From Trichococcus pasteurii (GTDB lineage: Bacteria > Bacillota > Bacilli > Lactobacillales > Aerococcaceae): a stretch of 64,000 nucleotides of DNA. The notes under the pieces are model-generated. The model was not told where the DNA came from, made no database searches, and saw nothing but the letters and a program-made list of their open reading frames with translations. Position numbers and translations under genes: made by a program. Shown here piece by piece: positions 53,875 to 63,885 of this stretch. The first letter of the stretch is position 1. Each line of letters begins with the position of its first letter. Where the stretch lies: assembly GCF_900112935.1 (NCBI RefSeq), contig NZ_FONM01000001.1, positions 292,045 through 356,044 of the forward strand, given 5' to 3'.

Positions 53875-54120
53875 CCCGAGAGATAGTCGAAGTGTCGGTT
53901 GATTTGGATCGGTTGCATCGCGAACAACCGAGAGATAGTCGAAGTGTCGGGTGTTCCGGATCGATTGCATCGCGAACAACCGAGAGATAGTCGAAGTGTC
54001 GGGTGTTCCGGATCTATTGCATCGCGAACAGCCGAGAGATAGTCGAAGTGTCGGGTGTTCCGGATCGATAGCATTGTGAACAGCCGAGAGATTCCGCAAC
54101 TGTCGACTGTTCAGCGATTG
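53875..54120. repeat. 52-bp tandem repeat, about 4.7 units
   Basis: Units start at 53875, 53927, 53979 and 54031, with a diverged partial unit from 54083. Period exactly 52 bp. Units are highly alike: CCGAGAGATAGTCGAAGTG, then TCGGGTGTTCCGGAT, then GCATCGCGAACA. The last unit ends with GTCGACTGTTC, the same motif as the 22.6-kb repeat. No gene is seen in 53843-54160. Confidence 0.85.
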
Positions 54121-55225: not shown

Positions 55226-55629
55226 AGTTTTTTCTCTCCATTCCTGAGGATGATTCTGATTTGAAAGTCGTTGTGAGTGCCCCATGTGGACTGTACATAA
55301 TTAAACCTGATGATTGCTTTTATATCAACTAAAGTGTAGCACTTTTAGATGGGGCGGGGAAATGATATGAGCGGAATTAAGAAGTGGAAATGATGGAGAA
55401 AAGTGATGAAAATGATTTGATTATCAAACTATATAGATGTATGCTTTATAGTATGGAAATCACTGAGCGGTGGTGTTTATGACGGAAAGAGACTCAAAAG
55501 GAAACAATGATAAAAAGACTCAAAACGACTAAACCCAAAAATTGGAGATTAACAAATTGAGGAGACTCATGAAATAGTAAATTGCTGAGCTTAGGACAAT
55601 TGACTCTGAAAAATTAGTATTACAGAACA

Positions 55630-55772
55630 AAAAAATAGCCCGTGCAGAACATGAAAATTCTGCACGGGCACTTATATCTATTAAGATATAGAAATAATTT
55701 CAATCCACGCATACGCGACAATGTAATATTACATGATAGGTAAAGGAAATTCAAATTTTTTATTTGTTAGGG
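55630..55772 (-). ncRNA. Predicted Cas-regulating guide RNA (CreR-like) of the type I-C system
   Basis: A small minus-strand transcription unit. Promoter TTAATA (55807-55802), 17-bp spacer, TATAAT (55784-55779), start near 55772. A single shortened type I-C repeat at 55719-55697 (GTCGCGTATGCG then TGGATTGAAAT) keeps the 11-nt 5' handle and a 3-bp CGC/GCG hairpin but has lost about 9 nt. Then come a 26-27 nt guide-like segment (55696-55671) and a terminator hairpin (GCCCGTGCAGAA / TTCTGCACGGGC plus T7, 55669-55632). The guide matches the cas3 promoter region at 55792-55808 beside a TTC PAM, except at positions 6 and 12. I infer a Cascade guide for repression of cas genes. No second repeat is present. 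Confidence 0.65.
55697..55719 (-). repeat. Solitary degenerate type I-C CRISPR repeat
   Basis: Twenty-three nt, reading GTCGCG-TATGCG-TGGATTGAAAT on the minus strand. Typical I-C repeats are 32 nt, start GTCGC and end GCGTGGATTGAAAT; both ends are kept while the central hairpin is shortened. A 14-bp palindrome ATGTAATATTACAT lies just 5' of it (55721-55734). Confidence 0.85.
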
Positions 55773-55788
55773 ATTTTCATTATAAAGA

Positions 55789-55808
55789 TTCTATTTATAT
55801 ATATTAAT
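55789..55808 (+). promoter_or_regulatory. Putative Cascade target site (PAM plus 17-nt match) in the cas3 promoter region
   Basis: TTC at 55789-55791, the known I-C PAM, followed by 17 nt matching the guide at 15 positions; mismatches are only at 6 (C/A) and 12 (C/A). Homology stops at position 18. A full 34-35 nt footprint would reach about 55825 and cover the cas3 -35 (55811-55816) and the guide RNA's own -35 (55802-55807). Confidence 0.6.
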
Positions 55809-55810
55809 TA

Positions 55811-55839
55811 TTGCAATTAGAAAATGAGTATGCTATATT
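55811..55839 (+). promoter_or_regulatory. Predicted cas operon promoter
   Basis: TTGCAA (55811-55816), 17-bp spacer, TATATT (55834-55839) with TGC directly before it (extended -10). Transcription would begin near 55846, just before the cas3 ribosome binding site, so the leader is only about 14 nt. Confidence 0.6.
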
Positions 55840-55859
55840 ACCATCAAGAGGTGACAATC

Positions 55860-58340
55860 ATGATAATTGCACATAGAGAATCAAATACAGATGGGAAAAA
55901 ACAATCGTTATCAGAGCATCTATTCTCCGTTGCTGAATATTGTGAAGAGACAGGTGCTCATATTGAATTATCCAACTTTATGTATTTAGTAGGGATACTG
56001 CATGATCTTGGTAAGGCGGATCGTCGTTTTCAGCATTATATCAACAATGGAACAAAAGACCGGGTGAACCATTCTTCGGCAGGTGGGAAATACCTTGTTA
56101 ATGTTTTAGGGAAAAGTCCAATTAAAAGATCTCAGAAGGTAATGAACGAAATTATCCAGTACATAGTTTTTTCACATCATGGTTTGTTTGATGTGGTAAA
56201 TTTTGAATGCGATTACATTATGGAGAGACGGATAACATACGATAAAACTGAAGAGTATCATTTTGAAGAGGACGTCATACCATTCGTGAATCAATTGAAG
56301 GAAGATATATTCAAGCAAAAAGGGAAAACTTTGGAGGACTTTTATTCTGATGCTTTAATGGAATTTGAGGCAATAGATAGTAAAATACTTAAATTATGCA
56401 ATCAGAAAAATAAAAAATTACTAAAGAACGCCTATGCGTACTATTTACACTGCATTGTTCGGTTGGGATTATCAATATTAAAAGAGGGTGATATTTACGA
56501 CTCTGCGAATGTATTTGAAGACGATAGAACTAAGAAGATAGATGAAACTGAAAAGGAGGATTTTTTCAAAAGAAGCCTACAAGAAGTTGAAAATATCGCA
56601 CGGCAATTTAGTGAATCTGAAAATCCGAGTGAGCTTAATAAAAATCGTGTGTTTCTTTCGGAACAGCTTCGTGTTGCCGGCATACAAAATAATTATGGCA
56701 TATACAAACTGGAAATGCCAACCGGATCTGGCAAAACTCATGCTTCTTTGCGCTATGCTATAAACAACGCTTGTTCGCACAATAAAAAACGCATTTTTTA
56801 CATAACTGCCTTTCTATCTGTTCTCGAACAAAATGCTGCGGTTATAAAAAAAACATTATCTGATTCAGATTATATTTTGGAGCATCATTCCAACATCATA
56901 AGCGAAAGAGACACTAATTCAGATGAGGAATCCTCAACTTTAGATTATCGACAAAAACAGTATTTGATTGATTCATGGAACAGCCCAGTGGTACTAACAA
57001 CAATGGTTCAGTTTTTTCAAACGATGTTTAAAGATAAGAGCAGTAATATTCGACGGTTCCATCAATTCATTGATGGCATAATTATTATTGATGAGGTCCA
57101 AAGTTTGCCAGTTAATGTGCTCTATCATTTCAATCTGATGATGAACTTTATGAGTACTATCATGAAGACCAATATTGTTTTGTGTACTGCCACTCAACCT
57201 ACCTTAGATTATTCGGAACTAGACTATCCAATAGAATATACTCAGAATTCTAATTTCAACGCTGATTTGGCAATTCTTGATGAAACAATGAAAAAGAGTT
57301 TTGCCAGAGTAGATGCGTATAATTTAATAGGGAAAAATCAGCAGACATTGAATACAAGTGAACTCATATATAAGATAAACTATGATTTAAGCAACTATAA
57401 AAGTGTCTTGATAATCCTGAATACAAAAAAAGCTGTTCTAACCTTATACGAAGAATTAAAAAAAGTTAGTAAGTCTAAGATATTCTATTTAACCACTAAT
57501 TTATGTGCGGCACATAGGATTAAAATTATTAATGAAATTAAGGATTACACTGAAAAGATTACTCTTAAAGAAGTGACCGATCCTGAAAAAATTATCGTGG
57601 TCAGCACTCAATTAGTTGAATCTGGTGTGGATTTTGACTTTAATGTTGTCTACCGTTCCTTAAGCGGAGTGGATTCTTTGATTCAGGCAGCCGGTCGCTG
57701 TAATCGAAACGGTAAATTATCTCGTGGTTTATTTAAAATTTTTAAATACGAAGAAGAAAATTTGAAGAGTCTAAAAGAAATTGAAGAAGCAAGGAATGCA
57801 AGCTTATATGCCATGAATCAATTGAACATTACGGATAACGACCAAATATTCCATTTAGAGGAATTACAGGAATTGTATTATGAAAAACATTATGCAAATC
57901 AGACCTCGTTAATGGGTTACAACACGAATGGAACTAACTTGATAGAATTATTAGGATACAACAAAGAAGCCCGGGATAGTTGCAATGAACTGAATAATTC
58001 TTTGTTTATAGCGCAATCTTTTTTGACAGCTGGTAAAAGTTTTGATCTGATTAAACAAGAAACCGTCACAGTCATAGTTCCTTATTTCTTTTCAGATACC
58101 CATAGCGACGTATTGGATTACATAGAAGAACTACATGAATCAATACAAAAATATGAATTCAATAATGTGAAAAAAGTTTTAAAAAAATTGCAACCGTATA
58201 CAATACAGGTGTATGATATAGGTAAAATGAAAGATTACGTTGAAGAGTTAATGGATGGCTCGATAAATATTTTGTTGAAGGAATATTACGATGAAAAAAT
58301 TGGATTAAACATAAGTGCATTGCAATTGCTTTTACCGTAA
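55860..58340 (+). CDS. cas3: Type I-C CRISPR-associated helicase-nuclease Cas3
   Basis: 826 residues. Cas3 is recruited to Cascade-bound DNA and shreds it. N-terminal HD nuclease: His20 (SEHLFSVAEYC), His48-Asp49 (ILHDLGK) and the downstream HHG. Superfamily 2 helicase: Walker A PTGSGKT (from residue 287), DEVQ box (411 on), and motif VI QAAGRCNRNG (about 609). The start at 55860 has AGAGGTGA 5-6 nt upstream. An in-frame ATG at 55824 lies before the predicted transcription start and is unlikely. First gene of the AT-rich seven-gene operon. Confidence 0.95.
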   Translation: MIIAHRESNTDGKKQSLSEHLFSVAEYCEETGAHIELSNFMYLVGILHDLGKADRRFQHYINNGTKDRVNHSSAGGKYLVNVLGKSPIKRSQKVMNEIIQYIVFSHHGLFDVVNFECDYIMERRITYDKTEEYHFEEDVIPFVNQLKEDIFKQKGKTLEDFYSDALMEFEAIDSKILKLCNQKNKKLLKNAYAYYLHCIVRLGLSILKEGDIYDSANVFEDDRTKKIDETEKEDFFKRSLQEVENIARQFSESENPSELNKNRVFLSEQLRVAGIQNNYGIYKLEMPTGSGKTHASLRYAINNACSHNKKRIFYITAFLSVLEQNAAVIKKTLSDSDYILEHHSNIISERDTNSDEESSTLDYRQKQYLIDSWNSPVVLTTMVQFFQTMFKDKSSNIRRFHQFIDGIIIIDEVQSLPVNVLYHFNLMMNFMSTIMKTNIVLCTATQPTLDYSELDYPIEYTQNSNFNADLAILDETMKKSFARVDAYNLIGKNQQTLNTSELIYKINYDLSNYKSVLIILNTKKAVLTLYEELKKVSKSKIFYLTTNLCAAHRIKIINEIKDYTEKITLKEVTDPEKIIVVSTQLVESGVDFDFNVVYRSLSGVDSLIQAAGRCNRNGKLSRGLFKIFKYEEENLKSLKEIEEARNASLYAMNQLNITDNDQIFHLEELQELYYEKHYANQTSLMGYNTNGTNLIELLGYNKEARDSCNELNNSLFIAQSFLTAGKSFDLIKQETVTVIVPYFFSDTHSDVLDYIEELHESIQKYEFNNVKKVLKKLQPYTIQVYDIGKMKDYVEELMDGSINILLKEYYDEKIGLNISALQLLLP

Positions 58341-58360: not shown

Positions 58361-59116
58361 ATGGATAGACAATTTAAGTCGAAACCTTTTTATTATCGCT
58401 TGACAGGAGAATATGCTTTATTTACGGATCCGGTCACAAAAGGGGGAGGAGAGAAATTTACCTATCCAATCCCTACATATCAGGCTATGAAAGGAATTAC
58501 AGAGGGTATTTATTGGAAGCCAACACTGCTTTTTTTTATCGATGAATTGAAAGTGATGAATCCAATCCAGACTGAAACGATGGGTATGCGGCCGATAATT
58601 ACGACCGGAAACGGAGGCAATGATCTTAGTTACTATACGTATCTCACAAAAGTTGAATACTTGGTGAAATTTCATTTTGAATGGAATCTTAATCGTCCTG
58701 ATTTGAAGAACGATAGACAAGAGATAAAGCATCAACAAATATTGTTGCGTTCACTAGACAGAGGTGGACGACGGGATGTTTTTATTGGGACTAGGGAATG
58801 CATTGGAGCGGTAGAAAGAATAAGCGCGACTGACTATCAAGATGCAGTCCCTTACTATCATGACAAATCTATTAATTTTGGGATTATGTTTCATTCATTT
58901 TCTTATCCAGGAGAATCATATGATGAATCTTCAGCTGGAAAATTAGTATCCAACTTTTCAGCTATTCAGATGCATGAAGGTGTGATTACATTCGGGCGAC
59001 CTGAGGAGTGCGTAATTCGTCAAGAACTCAGAGATTATTCTATCAAAAATTTTACGCTTGATGGAATAACATCAGTAGATGAGGAATACGAAAAATGTAA
59101 AATGGAGGAGGTGTAG
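58361..59116 (+). CDS. cas5c: Type I-C Cascade protein Cas5c (pre-crRNA endonuclease)
   Basis: 251 residues. In I-C systems this RAMP protein cuts the repeat and holds the 11-nt 5' handle of the crRNA, replacing Cas6. Visible: N-terminal YRLTGEYALFTDPVTKGGGEKFTYP with the family's Gly-rich start, YWKPTLLFFIDEL, the QILLRS-DRGGRRDVFIGTREC block and the C-terminal FGRPEECV. AAGGAAGGAG precedes the ATG. Confidence 0.93.
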   Translation: MDRQFKSKPFYYRLTGEYALFTDPVTKGGGEKFTYPIPTYQAMKGITEGIYWKPTLLFFIDELKVMNPIQTETMGMRPIITTGNGGNDLSYYTYLTKVEYLVKFHFEWNLNRPDLKNDRQEIKHQQILLRSLDRGGRRDVFIGTRECIGAVERISATDYQDAVPYYHDKSINFGIMFHSFSYPGESYDESSAGKLVSNFSAIQMHEGVITFGRPEECVIRQELRDYSIKNFTLDGITSVDEEYEKCKMEEV

Positions 59117-59121
59117 ATAAA

Positions 59122-61059
59122 TTGAATGTATTTACTGCTTTATATAAAACTTATCTGAGTTGTGAAGAGAGCGATTTGGTTGATGATGTGGATAATTTAA
59201 ATAATAGTGCAGTATTGCTACCGATATTTCATACTAACAAACGCTCTAATAACGGAAAAGATATCATTGAAATAACACTAAGCGAAGAGGGAGACTTTTT
59301 AAGGGCGAACTACCTTGAAAAAAATGAAATTATCATTTTCCCCGTAACGGAAGCTTCTGTTGCAAGGGCAAATGATAAGGCACCACATCCTCTGTGTGAT
59401 GAATTATCCTATATCACTAGCGCTTTTTCACAAGAAAAATTTGATGCGTACATTTCGAATCTTGAAAAATGGGTAAACTTTAATGATGGAGACAATGGAA
59501 ATATCGTATTGAACAGTATATGGAAATATCTGAAACAAGATACCCTCTTAAGCGACATAATACTCTATCTTTATCCTCGTTCAGCATATAAAATCGATGC
59601 TAATAAAATTATGGTATCGGCTGATGATAGTAATTTCACTCTATCCTCGAAAGATTTTATTACATTTTGCATTGAAACAAAGTCAAAAAGAAACCGGAAA
59701 GTTTCAAAGGATAAGGAATTACATAAAAACTATATCAGCTTTGTTGAAAGTGAATTAGACAAATTACCAAAAGAGATATGTGATATTAGTGGGCTACAAA
59801 CCTATTGTACTAAAAAACACCGCGGCCTTATGGGGAATGCGAAATTAATTTCAGTTAGTAACCACATTGAGACGTATTATGGTCGATTCGAGGATGGTTC
59901 TTCTGTTACCAAAGTGGGATATGTCACCTCTCAGAAAATTCATAATATGTTGAAGTATCTACTGGAAAATAAAAGTACCAGTCACATGCTGGATGCTAGT
60001 TCTAGGGTCGTAACTTGGCCGAGTGTAGATTTGCAGGACTATGATTATGATTTTATGGGTGAACAAACATTTTCACAGGCTCAAGTTGAGGATGATTCGT
60101 TATCTTTTTGGGATGACACGGAAGAATATACGATAACTTCTAACAAAGCGCAGATTGTAAATGATCATATCCGTGGGGAAATGCTGAGTACACATTCTGC
60201 TTTATACCAAGACTTTGATAGCTTACGTTTCTATGTACTAATTATTGATAAAGTTAGTAATGGAAGAATATCCGTCAAATATTTCAGGGAAATATTTATG
60301 GGGGATTTGACCACTCGCGTCAGCAACTGGTATGCAACAACAAATTGGCAGTATGGTTATGGGAAATATCTAAAAGTAAAGACACCTTCATTGTCTCAAA
60401 TTGCCAATGTTACATATGGACATTTTAATAAAGATTCAAAACGCATTGAAATGTATGATGATGCCTTGCGGAAAAAAACTGTGGAGCGATTGCTGCCATC
60501 TATAGTGGATGGGAAAAAAATATCGATGGATATTGTGAATAAGACAATGAATAATCTATCGAAACGCATTGCTTACAAAGAAGGATGGGATACGCTGTTA
60601 AACACTGCATGTTCTGTATTAAAAAAATATAAATGGGATTACAAACGGGAGGAAGTGACAAGTAAGTTGGACGAGATGAATAATAGTAGGGATTACTTGT
60701 ATGGTAGGTTACTGGCTGTAATTGAACTAATCGAAACGACTGCAACAAGTAGTGATAAAATTACTAACGCTGAAAAACTTTGGGCGACATATATGCAGTC
60801 ACCTCAAAAAACGTACGGAATACTTATCAAGAGAATCAGACCTTACCTGGATCGATTGAAAAAAAACAATAAATATTATTATTACTATGATGCTTTGCTG
60901 TCAGAAGTGACTAATGCAATCAATGAGTTAAATTTAAGCAGTGGACAACAAAATTCAAGATTGAACGAAGATTTTATTTTCGGTTACTACGCTCAAAAAA
61001 AACAAACTTATACAAAAAAAATGAATCAAGGGGAGGAAAATAATCATGACGAAGTTTGA
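59122..61059 (+). CDS. cas8c: Type I-C Cascade large subunit Cas8c
   Basis: 645 residues, TTG start with GGAGGAGGTG upstream. Cas8c recognises the PAM and stabilises the opened DNA; in I-C an internal start usually also yields a small Cas11c subunit from its C-terminal part. Family patterns: LPIFHTNKRSNNGKDIIEITL, RHRG-type loop TKKHRGLMGNAKLISVSNH, and a C-terminal helical bundle rich in Lys/Tyr. It overlaps cas7 by 14 nt. Confidence 0.9.
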   Translation: MNVFTALYKTYLSCEESDLVDDVDNLNNSAVLLPIFHTNKRSNNGKDIIEITLSEEGDFLRANYLEKNEIIIFPVTEASVARANDKAPHPLCDELSYITSAFSQEKFDAYISNLEKWVNFNDGDNGNIVLNSIWKYLKQDTLLSDIILYLYPRSAYKIDANKIMVSADDSNFTLSSKDFITFCIETKSKRNRKVSKDKELHKNYISFVESELDKLPKEICDISGLQTYCTKKHRGLMGNAKLISVSNHIETYYGRFEDGSSVTKVGYVTSQKIHNMLKYLLENKSTSHMLDASSRVVTWPSVDLQDYDYDFMGEQTFSQAQVEDDSLSFWDDTEEYTITSNKAQIVNDHIRGEMLSTHSALYQDFDSLRFYVLIIDKVSNGRISVKYFREIFMGDLTTRVSNWYATTNWQYGYGKYLKVKTPSLSQIANVTYGHFNKDSKRIEMYDDALRKKTVERLLPSIVDGKKISMDIVNKTMNNLSKRIAYKEGWDTLLNTACSVLKKYKWDYKREEVTSKLDEMNNSRDYLYGRLLAVIELIETTATSSDKITNAEKLWATYMQSPQKTYGILIKRIRPYLDRLKKNNKYYYYYDALLSEVTNAINELNLSSGQQNSRLNEDFIFGYYAQKKQTYTKKMNQGEENNHDEV

Positions 61060-61894
61060 AAAAAAGGTTGATTTTATTGTAACAGTACAAGTTGTGGACG
61101 CTAATCCTAATGGGGACCCATTAAATGGAAATTATCCCAGAACCGACTTAGAGGGCCTAGGAGTAATGAGTGATGTCAGTATTAAAAGGAAAATTCGCAA
61201 TCGCATGCAGGATATGGGATATAATATTTTTGTAAAGTCTAATGATCGTATTGACGATGGATTCCGTTCTCTTCAAAAAAGATATCAAAATTTATTTTCA
61301 CCTAAAGACATTGATGATGAAATCTATAAACGAGCATGCGATGAATGGCTCGACGTAAGAAGTTTCGGACAGGTTATTACATTCGACAAAAAATCGATTG
61401 GCATACGTGGTCCAGTATCAATCAGCATGGCCAAAAGTCTCTCTCCTGTAAATATTACTTCAATGCAAATCACTCGTAGCACAAACGGAATGGAGGCAGA
61501 GGGAAGATCTTCAGATACCATGGGAACAAAACCATTTGTGGAGTACGGAGTATACTTAATTAAAGGAAGCATAAATGCTTATTTTGCAGAAAAAACCGGC
61601 TTTTCGAATGAAGATGTTGATATACTTAAGGAAAGTCTTCGTACTCTTTTTGTAAACGATTCTTCTTCTGCAAGACCTGAAGGGAGCATGGATGTGAAAG
61701 AGATATACTGGTTCACACATCCTTCTAAGTTAGGTGTGATATCAAGTTCTAAAGTGTTTGATATGTTAACTTATAAGCAATTGGATTCGTTTGACGTTCA
61801 TTCTTATGAAGACTATCAAATCCATTTGGATGAAAAGAAAATTGAGGAAGCAGGATTGCTGGGTCTTAAGTTTGAACATATGTATGGTCTATGA
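61046..61894 (+). CDS. cas7c: Type I-C Cascade backbone protein Cas7c
   Basis: 282 residues. Cas7 subunits polymerise along the spacer and force every sixth base out of the guide-target duplex. Typical start VQVVDANPNGDPLNGNYPR, then SDVSIKRKIRNRMQ, RSFGQVI, and the thumb-like segment ITRSTNGMEAEGRSSDTMGTK (first 20 residues of it seen clearly). GGGGAGG precedes the ATG. It overlaps cas4 by 11 nt. Confidence 0.94.
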   Translation: MTKFEKKVDFIVTVQVVDANPNGDPLNGNYPRTDLEGLGVMSDVSIKRKIRNRMQDMGYNIFVKSNDRIDDGFRSLQKRYQNLFSPKDIDDEIYKRACDEWLDVRSFGQVITFDKKSIGIRGPVSISMAKSLSPVNITSMQITRSTNGMEAEGRSSDTMGTKPFVEYGVYLIKGSINAYFAEKTGFSNEDVDILKESLRTLFVNDSSSARPEGSMDVKEIYWFTHPSKLGVISSSKVFDMLTYKQLDSFDVHSYEDYQIHLDEKKIEEAGLLGLKFEHMYGL

Positions 61895-62555
61895 TAGCGA
61901 TGATTTTCTGATGCTGTCAGGGATACAGCATTTTTACTTTTGCAAACGGCAGTGGTGCTTAATACACATTGAACAGCAATGGAGCGAAAACAGATGGACG
62001 ATGGAAGGACAATTGCTTCATACGAAAGCGGATAATCCGTATGTAAAGGAAAAAAGGAAAGACCGATTTTTTTCTAGAGCCATGCCGGTTGCCTCATCCC
62101 TGTTAGGTTTGAGTGGTGTGTTAGATGTTGTAGAATTTACAAAAGATGACATAAATGGAATTTCGGTACCTGGTAAGAGGGGGAAATGGTCTCCTGTAAT
62201 CGTAGAATTTAAGCGGGGAAAACAAAAAAAAGATTTACGTGATATCGTCCAACTGGTGGCGGAAGTTATTTGCTTGGAGGAAAAGTTAAATATAAAAATT
62301 CCAAAATCCTATCTGTACTATAATCAAACAAATAAGAAGATAGAAGTGGACATTACTGAAGAGCTGAGAAATTTAGTTTTTCACCTATCGAATGAAATGC
62401 ATCATCTTTATGAACAGAATATCACTACACCCGCAGAAATATCAAAAAATTGCAAAGAATGCTCTCTTGTTGATATTTGTATGCCTAGAATAACTAAGAA
62501 AAAAGTAAGCATAGCAAATTATATGTCGCAGCGATTGGATGAGGATTTGACATGA
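61884..62555 (+). CDS. cas4: CRISPR-associated exonuclease Cas4
   Basis: 223 residues from the ATG at 61884. Cas4 trims prespacers and checks the PAM before integration. Iron-sulfur cysteines: FCKRQWC near the N-terminus and NCKECSLVDIC at the C-terminus. RecB-type nuclease motifs GVLDVVEF and VEFKRGK with the downstream Gln/Tyr. The frame runs upstream inside cas7 but has no better start. Overlaps cas1 by 4 nt. Confidence 0.92.
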   Translation: MVYDSDDFLMLSGIQHFYFCKRQWCLIHIEQQWSENRWTMEGQLLHTKADNPYVKEKRKDRFFSRAMPVASSLLGLSGVLDVVEFTKDDINGISVPGKRGKWSPVIVEFKRGKQKKDLRDIVQLVAEVICLEEKLNIKIPKSYLYYNQTNKKIEVDITEELRNLVFHLSNEMHHLYEQNITTPAEISKNCKECSLVDICMPRITKKKVSIANYMSQRLDEDLT

Positions 62556-63577
62556 GAAAACTGTTAAATACGCTATACATAACAAATGAAGAATACTATC
62601 TTGCTCGTGACGGCGAGAATATAATTATCAAAGAAGATGGTAAGACCATTCGGAGATTCCCAATACATATACTTGAAGGTATCGTATGTTTTAATTACGT
62701 CGGAGCAAGTCCTGGTGTTGTAAAATTATGCAATGAAAACAATATTTCAATTACCTTTTTAACTCCTAATGGTAGATTTTGCGGGAAGTTTATTGGTGTT
62801 ACAAATGGGAACGTTCTTTTAAGACGGACGCAATATCGGATATCGGATGATGATCGCTCTTTGATGATTGCCAAGCGGTGCATTGAAGCTAAGTTAATTA
62901 ACAGCAGGAAGGTATATTTAAGACTACTGAGAGATCACCCAGATAAAATTGATTCCCAGAAGATCCAAAAGGTAACAGATTACTTATATAACCAAATCCA
63001 AGTTGTGAATGATATTAGAGAAAAAGAGAGTTTAAGAGGTGTCGAGGGTGATGCTGCTAGGATTTACTTTCAACAATTCGATTCTTTAATATTGAGTCAG
63101 CAAGAGGATTTCAAATTTGTTATGAGAAGTAAGCGACCTCCTATGAATAGGGTCAATGCTATGTTATCCTTTTTATATAGCATGCTTACGTACGAGGTTC
63201 AAGCAGCCTTAGAAACTATAGGGTTAGATAGTTACGTAGGTTTTTTCCATACTGATAGACCAGGAAGGGCAAGTCTAGCTTTAGATATGATAGAAGAATT
63301 GAGGGCATACATGGTTGATCGCTTGGTATTGACTATGATTAATCGTAATCAAATATCAAAGAGTGATTTTGAAGTGAAAGAAAATGATGCAGTCCTTTTA
63401 AACGAAAAAGGAAGAGAGAAAATATTAACCGAATGGCAAAAAAGGAAACAAATCGAAATTACACATCCTTTCATAAAAGAGACGATTCCGATTGGACTAA
63501 TTCCTTATGTTCAAGCACAACTGTTGTCAAGACATATTCGTGGTGATCTGGATGAATATCCACCGTTTATCTCATAG
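62552..63577 (+). CDS. cas1: CRISPR integrase Cas1 (type I-C)
   Basis: 341 residues. Cas1 integrates new spacers at the leader-repeat junction. Family features: N-terminal beta domain (LYITNEEYYLARDGENIIIK), LEGIVCFNYVGASPGV, the metal-binding Glu in RGVEGDAARIYF, the His in GFFHTDRPGRASLALD, and Glu/Asp residues just after it. ATGA overlap with cas4 indicates coupling. Confidence 0.95.
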   Translation: MRKLLNTLYITNEEYYLARDGENIIIKEDGKTIRRFPIHILEGIVCFNYVGASPGVVKLCNENNISITFLTPNGRFCGKFIGVTNGNVLLRRTQYRISDDDRSLMIAKRCIEAKLINSRKVYLRLLRDHPDKIDSQKIQKVTDYLYNQIQVVNDIREKESLRGVEGDAARIYFQQFDSLILSQQEDFKFVMRSKRPPMNRVNAMLSFLYSMLTYEVQAALETIGLDSYVGFFHTDRPGRASLALDMIEELRAYMVDRLVLTMINRNQISKSDFEVKENDAVLLNEKGREKILTEWQKRKQIEITHPFIKETIPIGLIPYVQAQLLSRHIRGDLDEYPPFIS

Positions 63578-63591
63578 AGGTGATGATTCTG

Positions 63592-63885
63592 ATGATGGTA
63601 TTAATAACGTATGATGTAAATACTGAAGATCCATCTGGAAGGAAGAGATTGAGAAAAGTTGCAAAAACGTGTATCAACTATGGTCAGAGAGTTCAGAATT
63701 CGGTTTTTGAATGCACGATTGATCCAGCTCAATTTGTTAAAGTAAAATCACAATTGGACGGCATAATTGATCATCAAAAAGATTCACTTCGATTCTACTT
63801 ACTTGGAAAAAATTGGATAAGTAGAGTAGAAACTATGGGGAGAGATGGGGCATATAATCCCGAATCGGATGTTTTCTTATTGTAG
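63592..63885 (+). CDS. cas2: CRISPR adaptation protein Cas2
   Basis: 97 residues from the ATG at 63592 (GAGGTG upstream). It bridges two Cas1 dimers. The ferredoxin-like core starts MMVLITYDVNTED and runs through RLRKVAKTCINYGQRVQNSVFEC to a C-terminal SRVETMGRDG. In-frame start options exist 3-12 nt upstream. Last gene of the cas operon. Confidence 0.95.
   Translation: MMVLITYDVNTEDPSGRKRLRKVAKTCINYGQRVQNSVFECTIDPAQFVKVKSQLDGIIDHQKDSLRFYLLGKNWISRVETMGRDGAYNPESDVFLL

Follow-up and report, generated by a model that had tools for sequence, protein, structure and literature searches.

A candidate CreR-like RNA directed at the predicted cas3 promoter of a type I-C CRISPR-Cas locus in Trichococcus pasteurii

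Results

The type I-C locus and its solitary repeat unit

The window analysed here is a 64,000-nucleotide stretch of Trichococcus pasteurii DNA (G000:C26:292045-356044), the last 8 kb of which are filled by a complete type I-C operon, cas3-cas5c-cas8c-cas7-cas4-cas1-cas2. Every gene scored above its NCBIfam cut-off. The first gene, cas3 (55860..58340, plus strand; TIGR01587 and TIGR01596), is followed on the same strand by cas5c (58361..59116; TIGR01876), cas8c (59122..61059; TIGR01863), cas7c (61046..61894; TIGR02589), cas4 (61791..62555; TIGR00372; true start uncertain), cas1c (62552..63577; TIGR03640), and cas2 (63580..63885; TIGR01573). The gap between cas3 and cas5c is 20 nt, and the other cas genes are likewise spaced by small gaps. 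The CRISPR array lies past the end of the window, downstream of cas2 (G000:C26:357509 onward), where 30 repeat tails were read with some stretches masked; its usual repeat is GTCGCACTCTACACGAGTGCGTGGATTGAAAT (32 nt). The assignment to type I-C is based on the gene content of the operon together with the GTCGC...GTGGATTGAAAT form of this repeat. Elsewhere in the window, two adjoining 52-nt direct repeats that are 81% alike were seen at 54000-54103, beyond the end of a DUF-like membrane gene.

Ahead of cas3, on the minus strand, is a solitary degenerate type I-C repeat of 23 nt (55697..55719, GTCGC-GTAT-GCGTGGATTGAAAT). Its stem is shortened to CGC/GCG (3 bp) around a GTAT loop and its 3' part, GCGTGGATTGAAAT, is intact, so that it is 9 nt shorter than the 32-nt repeat of the array. 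A genome search found 31 copies of GCGTGGATTGAAAT, of which the solitary repeat is the sole one on the minus strand. An earlier sequence-only reading had spoken of a "mini-CRISPR", a term that implies two repeats; there is only one repeat, and the element is a solitary repeat unit. A remnant of the array was also considered and rejected, the array itself being downstream of cas2 and in the opposite orientation.

The repeat is followed by a 27-nt guide that reaches to the terminator stem (55670..55696, minus strand, TATTTCTATATCTTAATAGATATAAGT; guide positions 1-17 correspond to 55696-55680) and then by an intrinsic terminator (55628..55669, minus strand) made of a 13-pair stem (55669-55638) and TATTTTTTTG, for which the mean in shuffles was 0.0. 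The sequence-only reading had rightly cautioned that the guide is self-complementary: its nucleotides 7-24 fold as a 7-bp hairpin (-5.1 kcal/mol), and no guide in the 33 matched rows of the survey described below folds more strongly; this hairpin could weaken loading. The candidate promoter of the RNA, TTGAAT-17-TAATAT (55726..55754, minus strand), is weak and falls below the threshold of the scanner; its -10 ends 6 nt ahead of the repeat, which would place the transcription start at the repeat. An Rfam search of 55300-55950 returned no family near its gathering score.

The guide matches a PAM-flanked site ahead of cas3

The guide finds its target on the plus strand at 55792..55808 (17 nt, TATTTATATATATTAATTATTGC), directly behind a TTC PAM read from the sequence at 55789..55791; at the guide's own locus the corresponding bases are AAT. 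Guide and target are identical at positions 1-5, 7-11, and 13-17 and differ at 6, 12, and 18. Direct reading of the sequence thus bears out the match, the two internal mismatches, and the TTC/AAT difference that the sequence-only reading had reported. Its statement that homology ends at 18 needs a qualification. Position 18 is indeed mismatched, but in type I-E structures every sixth base is flipped out (PMC5965380), and since 18 is also a multiple of six, mismatches at pairing positions begin only at 19. The flipped-base rule as used here for type I-C is carried over from those type I-E structures. Counted by this rule, 15 of 15 pairing positions up to 17 are matched.

Among the 3,100 TTC sites on both strands of the window, this is the only one that reaches 15 of 15 pairing positions, the runner-up reaching 11. 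The region has an A+T content of 74%, and the shuffled-sequence test that the sequence-only reading had called for did not reproduce the match: in 20,000 dinucleotide shuffles of 55697-55859 the top score was 14, seen once, and a score of 15 against the real region was obtained with 2 of 20,000 shuffled guides. When the PAM requirement was dropped, the best score among 5,000 shuffles was 14 (22 shuffles).

The predicted cas3 promoter (55811..55839, plus strand; TTGCAA-17-TATATT, with TG ahead of the -10; score 9/12) sits between the guide target and cas3, with its -35 at guide positions 20-25. Taken alone this call is weak, the region holding 5 promoter-like sites versus 2.5 in shuffles. The target is followed by cas3, 51 nt on, and no ORF that could be an overlapping gene or a toxin was found between them, the sole earlier start codon being in frame with cas3. 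The best promoter-like score of the region (10/12) belongs to a minus-strand site, TTAATA-17-TATAAT (55807-55779), that overlaps the target. Cascade sitting on the target might also affect leftward transcription through this site.

Solitary repeat units beside other cas3 relatives

Searches with the window's cas3 gave relatives in 4 of 13 genus-level genomes (E 1e-20) and, at E 1e-40, in 5 of 76 family-level, 31 of 395 order-level, 62 of 398 class-level, and 111 of 398 phylum-level genomes. The loci taken were the best 30 or fewer relatives per search, plus 7 loci from one further search, and are therefore a top-scoring set and not a random sample. A first scan of 37 loci required TTC and scored pairing positions only. 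It found a solitary repeat with at least 12 of 15 matches in 20 loci, plus two (L044 and L045) with CTC. Since this scoring favours mismatches at 6, 12, and 18, the scan was replaced by a blind one, in which the best ungapped identity to guide positions 1-18 was sought within 1,200 nt, with equal weights and no PAM requirement, in 90 loci (L024-L113).

In 49 loci, the blind scan picked up 55 solitary repeat-like motifs, of which some are clearly intragenic. A unique best site with at least 14 of 18 matches was found for 37 motifs, preceded by TTC in 31 cases, CTC in 2, and another trinucleotide in 4. Thus 33 of the 55 solitary motifs near cas3 relatives have a unique local match behind TTC or CTC. 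Under the same rule, shuffled guides gave 258 unique sites in 2,200 trials and 16 with TTC or CTC (0.4 per 55), and reversed guides gave 4 of 55 and 0 of 55, respectively. A chance match in AT-rich DNA was rejected on the shuffle tests, both in the window and for the blind-scan guides. The four rows dropped for their PAMs were L025 (ACC), L039 (AAT), L077 (ATA), and L107 (TTT), and two more (L071 and L084) had tied best sites. When rescored on TTC sites alone, L039 and L071 reached 15/18, L077 14/18, L084 13/18, and L107 only 11/18. In L039, the RNA unit stands after cas3 and its best TTC target before cas3, about 2.6 kb away. The two CTC targets (L044:1202 and L045:1197) are matched at 14 of 15 pairing positions.

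Among the 33 rows are three from the window's own lineage as well as other near relatives. Trichococcus flocculiformis DSM 2094 (L024) has a cas3 protein identical to that of the window. Guide and target are also identical to those of the window in this genome and in G003 (L032, possibly the same strain), with one SNP at 55780. The lineage of the window, being invariant in guide and target, therefore contributes no covariation of its own. A stem of at least 3 bp was found in 32 of the 33 rows and one of at least 5 bp in 18, in a tally made without a control in which the window rows gave CAT/ATG instead of CGC/GCG. A tally of terminators over the relatives is uncalibrated.

Many type I-C-like loci lack the element, and the solitary unit is far from universal. 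Among 18 further loci (14 + 4), one (L120) has the unit together with TTC and is mismatched at 6 and 12, though at 12/18 it falls below the cut-off; another (L130) is a doubtful case. At a Lachnospiraceae I-C locus (L025:3532, minus strand), both a solitary repeat and a strong terminator lie ahead of cas3, and no convincing target was found.

Mismatches follow a six-base period

Guides were grouped greedily at 13/18 into 24 clusters. The clusters of L025, L039, and L107 were excluded, which left 21, each with one representative; L077 falls inside a kept cluster without being its representative. Across these 21 clusters, the numbers of mismatches at positions 1 to 18 are 0, 0, 0, 0, 0, 17, 0, 1, 1, 3, 1, 13, 1, 0, 0, 4, 8, and 15, and positions 19-24 have 14-17 each. 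Matching therefore fades at 16-17 and is at background level from 18 on. If guide and target were unrelated, 16.3 mismatches would be expected at position 6, 15.0 at 12, and 15.0 at 18. The observed numbers are close to these, so 6, 12, and 18 behave as free positions and the others as held. Selection in favour of mismatch at 6 or 12 was considered and found unsupported, the observed 17 and 13 standing against 16.3 and 15.0 under independence. Position 6 is matched in 4 of 21 clusters, which is no more than chance; for E. coli type I-E off-target sites, a match at position 6 is given as 45% (PMC5904413). A hypergeometric P of 1e-25 for the pattern overstates independence, because the rows include near relatives and clusters such as those of L044 and L050 may share descent.

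The sequence-only reading had named independent drift of guide and target in relatives as grounds for rejecting the match. No such drift was seen, positions 1-5 and 7-11 having 0-3 mismatches each in the 21 clusters. Five pairs of relatives compared by eye show 8 changes within positions 1-15, 6 of them at 6 or 12. Two other Trichococcus loci (L033 and L034) have guides that differ at 6 and 12 only. L069 and L081 share a guide and have targets that differ at 12 and 17, and L067 and L068 share a guide and have targets that differ at 12, 17, and 18. The targets of L044 and L047 differ at 6, 14, 17, and 18, and those of L046 and L049 at 6 and 9.

Genes that follow the targets

Of the 33 sites, 7 have cas3 as the next gene after the target and 10 have cas5; another 9 are followed by a small hydrophobic ORF, and 7 by something different or by nothing recognised. 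Hydrophobicity and two of the cas3 assignments were judged by hand. In the two other Trichococcus loci (L033 and L034), whose cas3 is 33-34% identical to that of the window, the unit is placed between cas3 and cas5 and is directed at cas5, so that compared with the window the design is common and the guide and promoter are different. The hydrophobic ORFs, of 27-62 aa, stand directly after the target, in the stretch from the solitary repeat to the following cas gene or beside it, in L030, L040, L042, L044, L045, L047, L050, L051, and L054, and in six of these loci (L040, L044, L045, L047, L050, and L051) one recognisable type of peptide is found beside cas3. A Pfam and NCBIfam search with three of the small hydrophobic peptides found no family above cut-off. 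We regard these nine loci as candidates for guarded toxins of a CreTA/CrePA-like kind in type I-C. In L067 (4024-4150), the target is followed by a 97-aa ORF in the place that cas5 occupies in the related locus L068; we take this ORF to resemble the first ORF of a transposase.

Discussion

Other subtypes are already known to repress their cas genes through crRNA-like RNAs (CreR): one source names types I-B, I-E, and V-A (PMC13131331), and another speaks in looser terms of "Type I and Type V-A" (PMC12737573). Like CreR (Liu et al. 2023, Cell Host Microbe), the element in the window would be a crRNA-like RNA encoded in the cas locus by a degenerate repeat unit, with a PAM, no toxin, and limited complementarity to the cas promoter. 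It differs in being of type I-C, in having a repeat of the kind cut by Cas5c, and in having one shortened repeat with a terminator hairpin as its 3' end. A related principle is described for the long-form tracrRNA of Cas9, whose guide is partly complementary to the cas promoter and represses its own operon (PMC8730458). There too the effector represses its own operon through a partly matching guide; unlike the window, that system is of type II, is derived from the tracrRNA, and uses a 9-bp match. For I-C systems, one source lists a candidate RNA of palindromic form some 300 bases ahead of cas3, in a passage that gives it no function (PMC9067536).

A literature search of partial coverage found no report of a type I-C CreR, and a prediction for I-C may already be in print. 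Standalone repeats, mostly of type I, with spacers partly complementary to cas promoters were reportedly collected by Shmakov et al. (2023, NAR), and the element in the window resembles these predicted crRNA-like elements or mini-arrays in its standalone repeat and its spacer partly complementary to the cas promoter.

We consider it very probable that the element is a type I-C CreR, that is, an RNA that steers Cascade to its own cas promoter and represses the operon without cutting. The CreR reading is built on the solitary repeat, guide, and terminator, on the PAM, the match, and its mismatch pattern, on the complete I-C operon behind the target, and on the same anatomy, with different guides, found in other I-C loci. 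As in CreR, the RNA gene joins a guide to a degenerate copy of the repeat used in this locus, the guide is partly complementary to a predicted cas promoter beside the PAM of the subtype, and a complete cognate effector is encoded in the same locus.

Transcription of the RNA would begin beside the repeat and end at the terminator, whose hairpin would substitute for a second repeat. Cas5c would take the place of Cas6 and cut the shortened 3-bp hairpin, or the RNA might be used nearly as made; Cas5c is described as cutting type I-C repeats and staying on the 3' hairpin (PMC5965380). The RNA would load into the genome's own Cascade, which would attach to the TTC site by seed pairing and additional base pairs. 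In E. coli, five seed pairs and a PAM are given as enough for Cascade to bind and extensive pairing as needed for Cas3 to cut (PMC5904413), and in type I-B a 24-bp spacer is described as repressing without interference or priming (PMC10989794). Cascade lying over guide positions 1-27 (55792-55818) would cover the -35 and block RNA polymerase, and Cas3 would stay inactive since the match goes no further than 17. Pairing too short for cutting seems to be a conserved feature, as matching ends at 16-17 in the 21 clusters; from this we infer that the targets are not cut. Repression of the cas3 promoter would lower the whole cas operon, and because the Cascade genes lie inside it, a negative feedback loop would close. 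The loop would ease when array crRNAs or anti-CRISPRs draw Cascade away, as is described for CreR in other subtypes (PMC12737573; PMC13131331).

The mismatch pattern and the genes after the targets also bear on other explanations. Elements of the CreTA/CrePA type, in which the creA antitoxin RNA guards Cascade, are described with one or two degenerate repeats, partial complementarity, and, in haloarchaea, a TTC PAM (PMC9458426), and the element in the window is like them in its degenerate repeat, its partial complementarity, and its TTC. If it guarded a toxin in this manner, Cascade and the RNA would repress a toxin gene that the loss of Cascade would free, and the small hydrophobic ORFs right after the target in nine of the 33 loci of the same anatomy suggest such a toxin-promoter target there. 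The known targets are toxin promoters, whereas that of the window is the cas operon, with cas3 following directly, and the three peptides examined match no known family above cut-off. A toxic RNA without an ORF might still be present here. For the window, we judge a toxin guard to be very improbable. The guide might instead be the AT-rich spacer of an orphan repeat, left over from a decaying array, that resembles the promoter by chance. The A+T content of the region, the loss of 9 nt from the repeat, and the existence of solitary repeats without a target (L025) are all compatible with such decay. We hold this to be highly improbable in view of the shuffle tests, the conservation of the PAM and of the six-base mismatch period in 21 clusters, and the perfect terminator after the guide.

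A solitary repeat could also act as an RNA anti-CRISPR (Racr) that occupies Cas5c and Cas7 and targets nothing. RacrIC1 is a type I-C example made of a solitary repeat RNA, and it is described as a prophage-borne inhibitor downstream of acrIC5 (PMC10651486), not as a promoter-directed guide. The unit in the window lies on a 488-kb contig, inside the host's own cas locus and beside its cas operon, and not on a virus or plasmid as a Racr does; it also has a conserved target, and a decoy has no need of conserved matching between guide and target. We find a decoy hardly credible here. The same slight weight is given to self-control, in which the main target would be the divergent promoter of the RNA itself (55807-55779, minus strand), with or without control of cas3. 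That minus-strand site does have the top promoter-like score of the region, but of the 20 loci (among 42 rows) that have a -10-like hexamer with 5 or 6 of 6 matches, 15 have it 5-8 nt before the repeat in an uncalibrated tally, and cas3 or cas5 comes next after the target in 17 of 33.

With the CreR reading, RNA-guided Cas autorepression would extend to type I-C, with simple and testable candidates. The natural guide-target pairs would serve to gauge which guide positions are read by I-C Cascade at a promoter and how long pairing may grow before it is unsafe, and the footprint over 21 clusters is the part that we expect to be new. The same anatomy ahead of small hydrophobic ORFs flags candidate CRISPR-guarded toxins. 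A broader proposition, to which we give an even chance, is that solitary-repeat guides are a widespread and fast-retargeting form of I-C control in Bacillota, in which one RNA gene design alternates between silencing of the cas operon (as CreR) and silencing of a small membrane toxin next to it (as CreTA/CrePA), and that the guide-target pairs record an evolutionary footprint of I-C Cascade. If this is true, the footprint would be pairing at 1-5, 7-11, and 13-16 with 6, 12, and 18 free, and a limit near 17 would keep Cas3 off.
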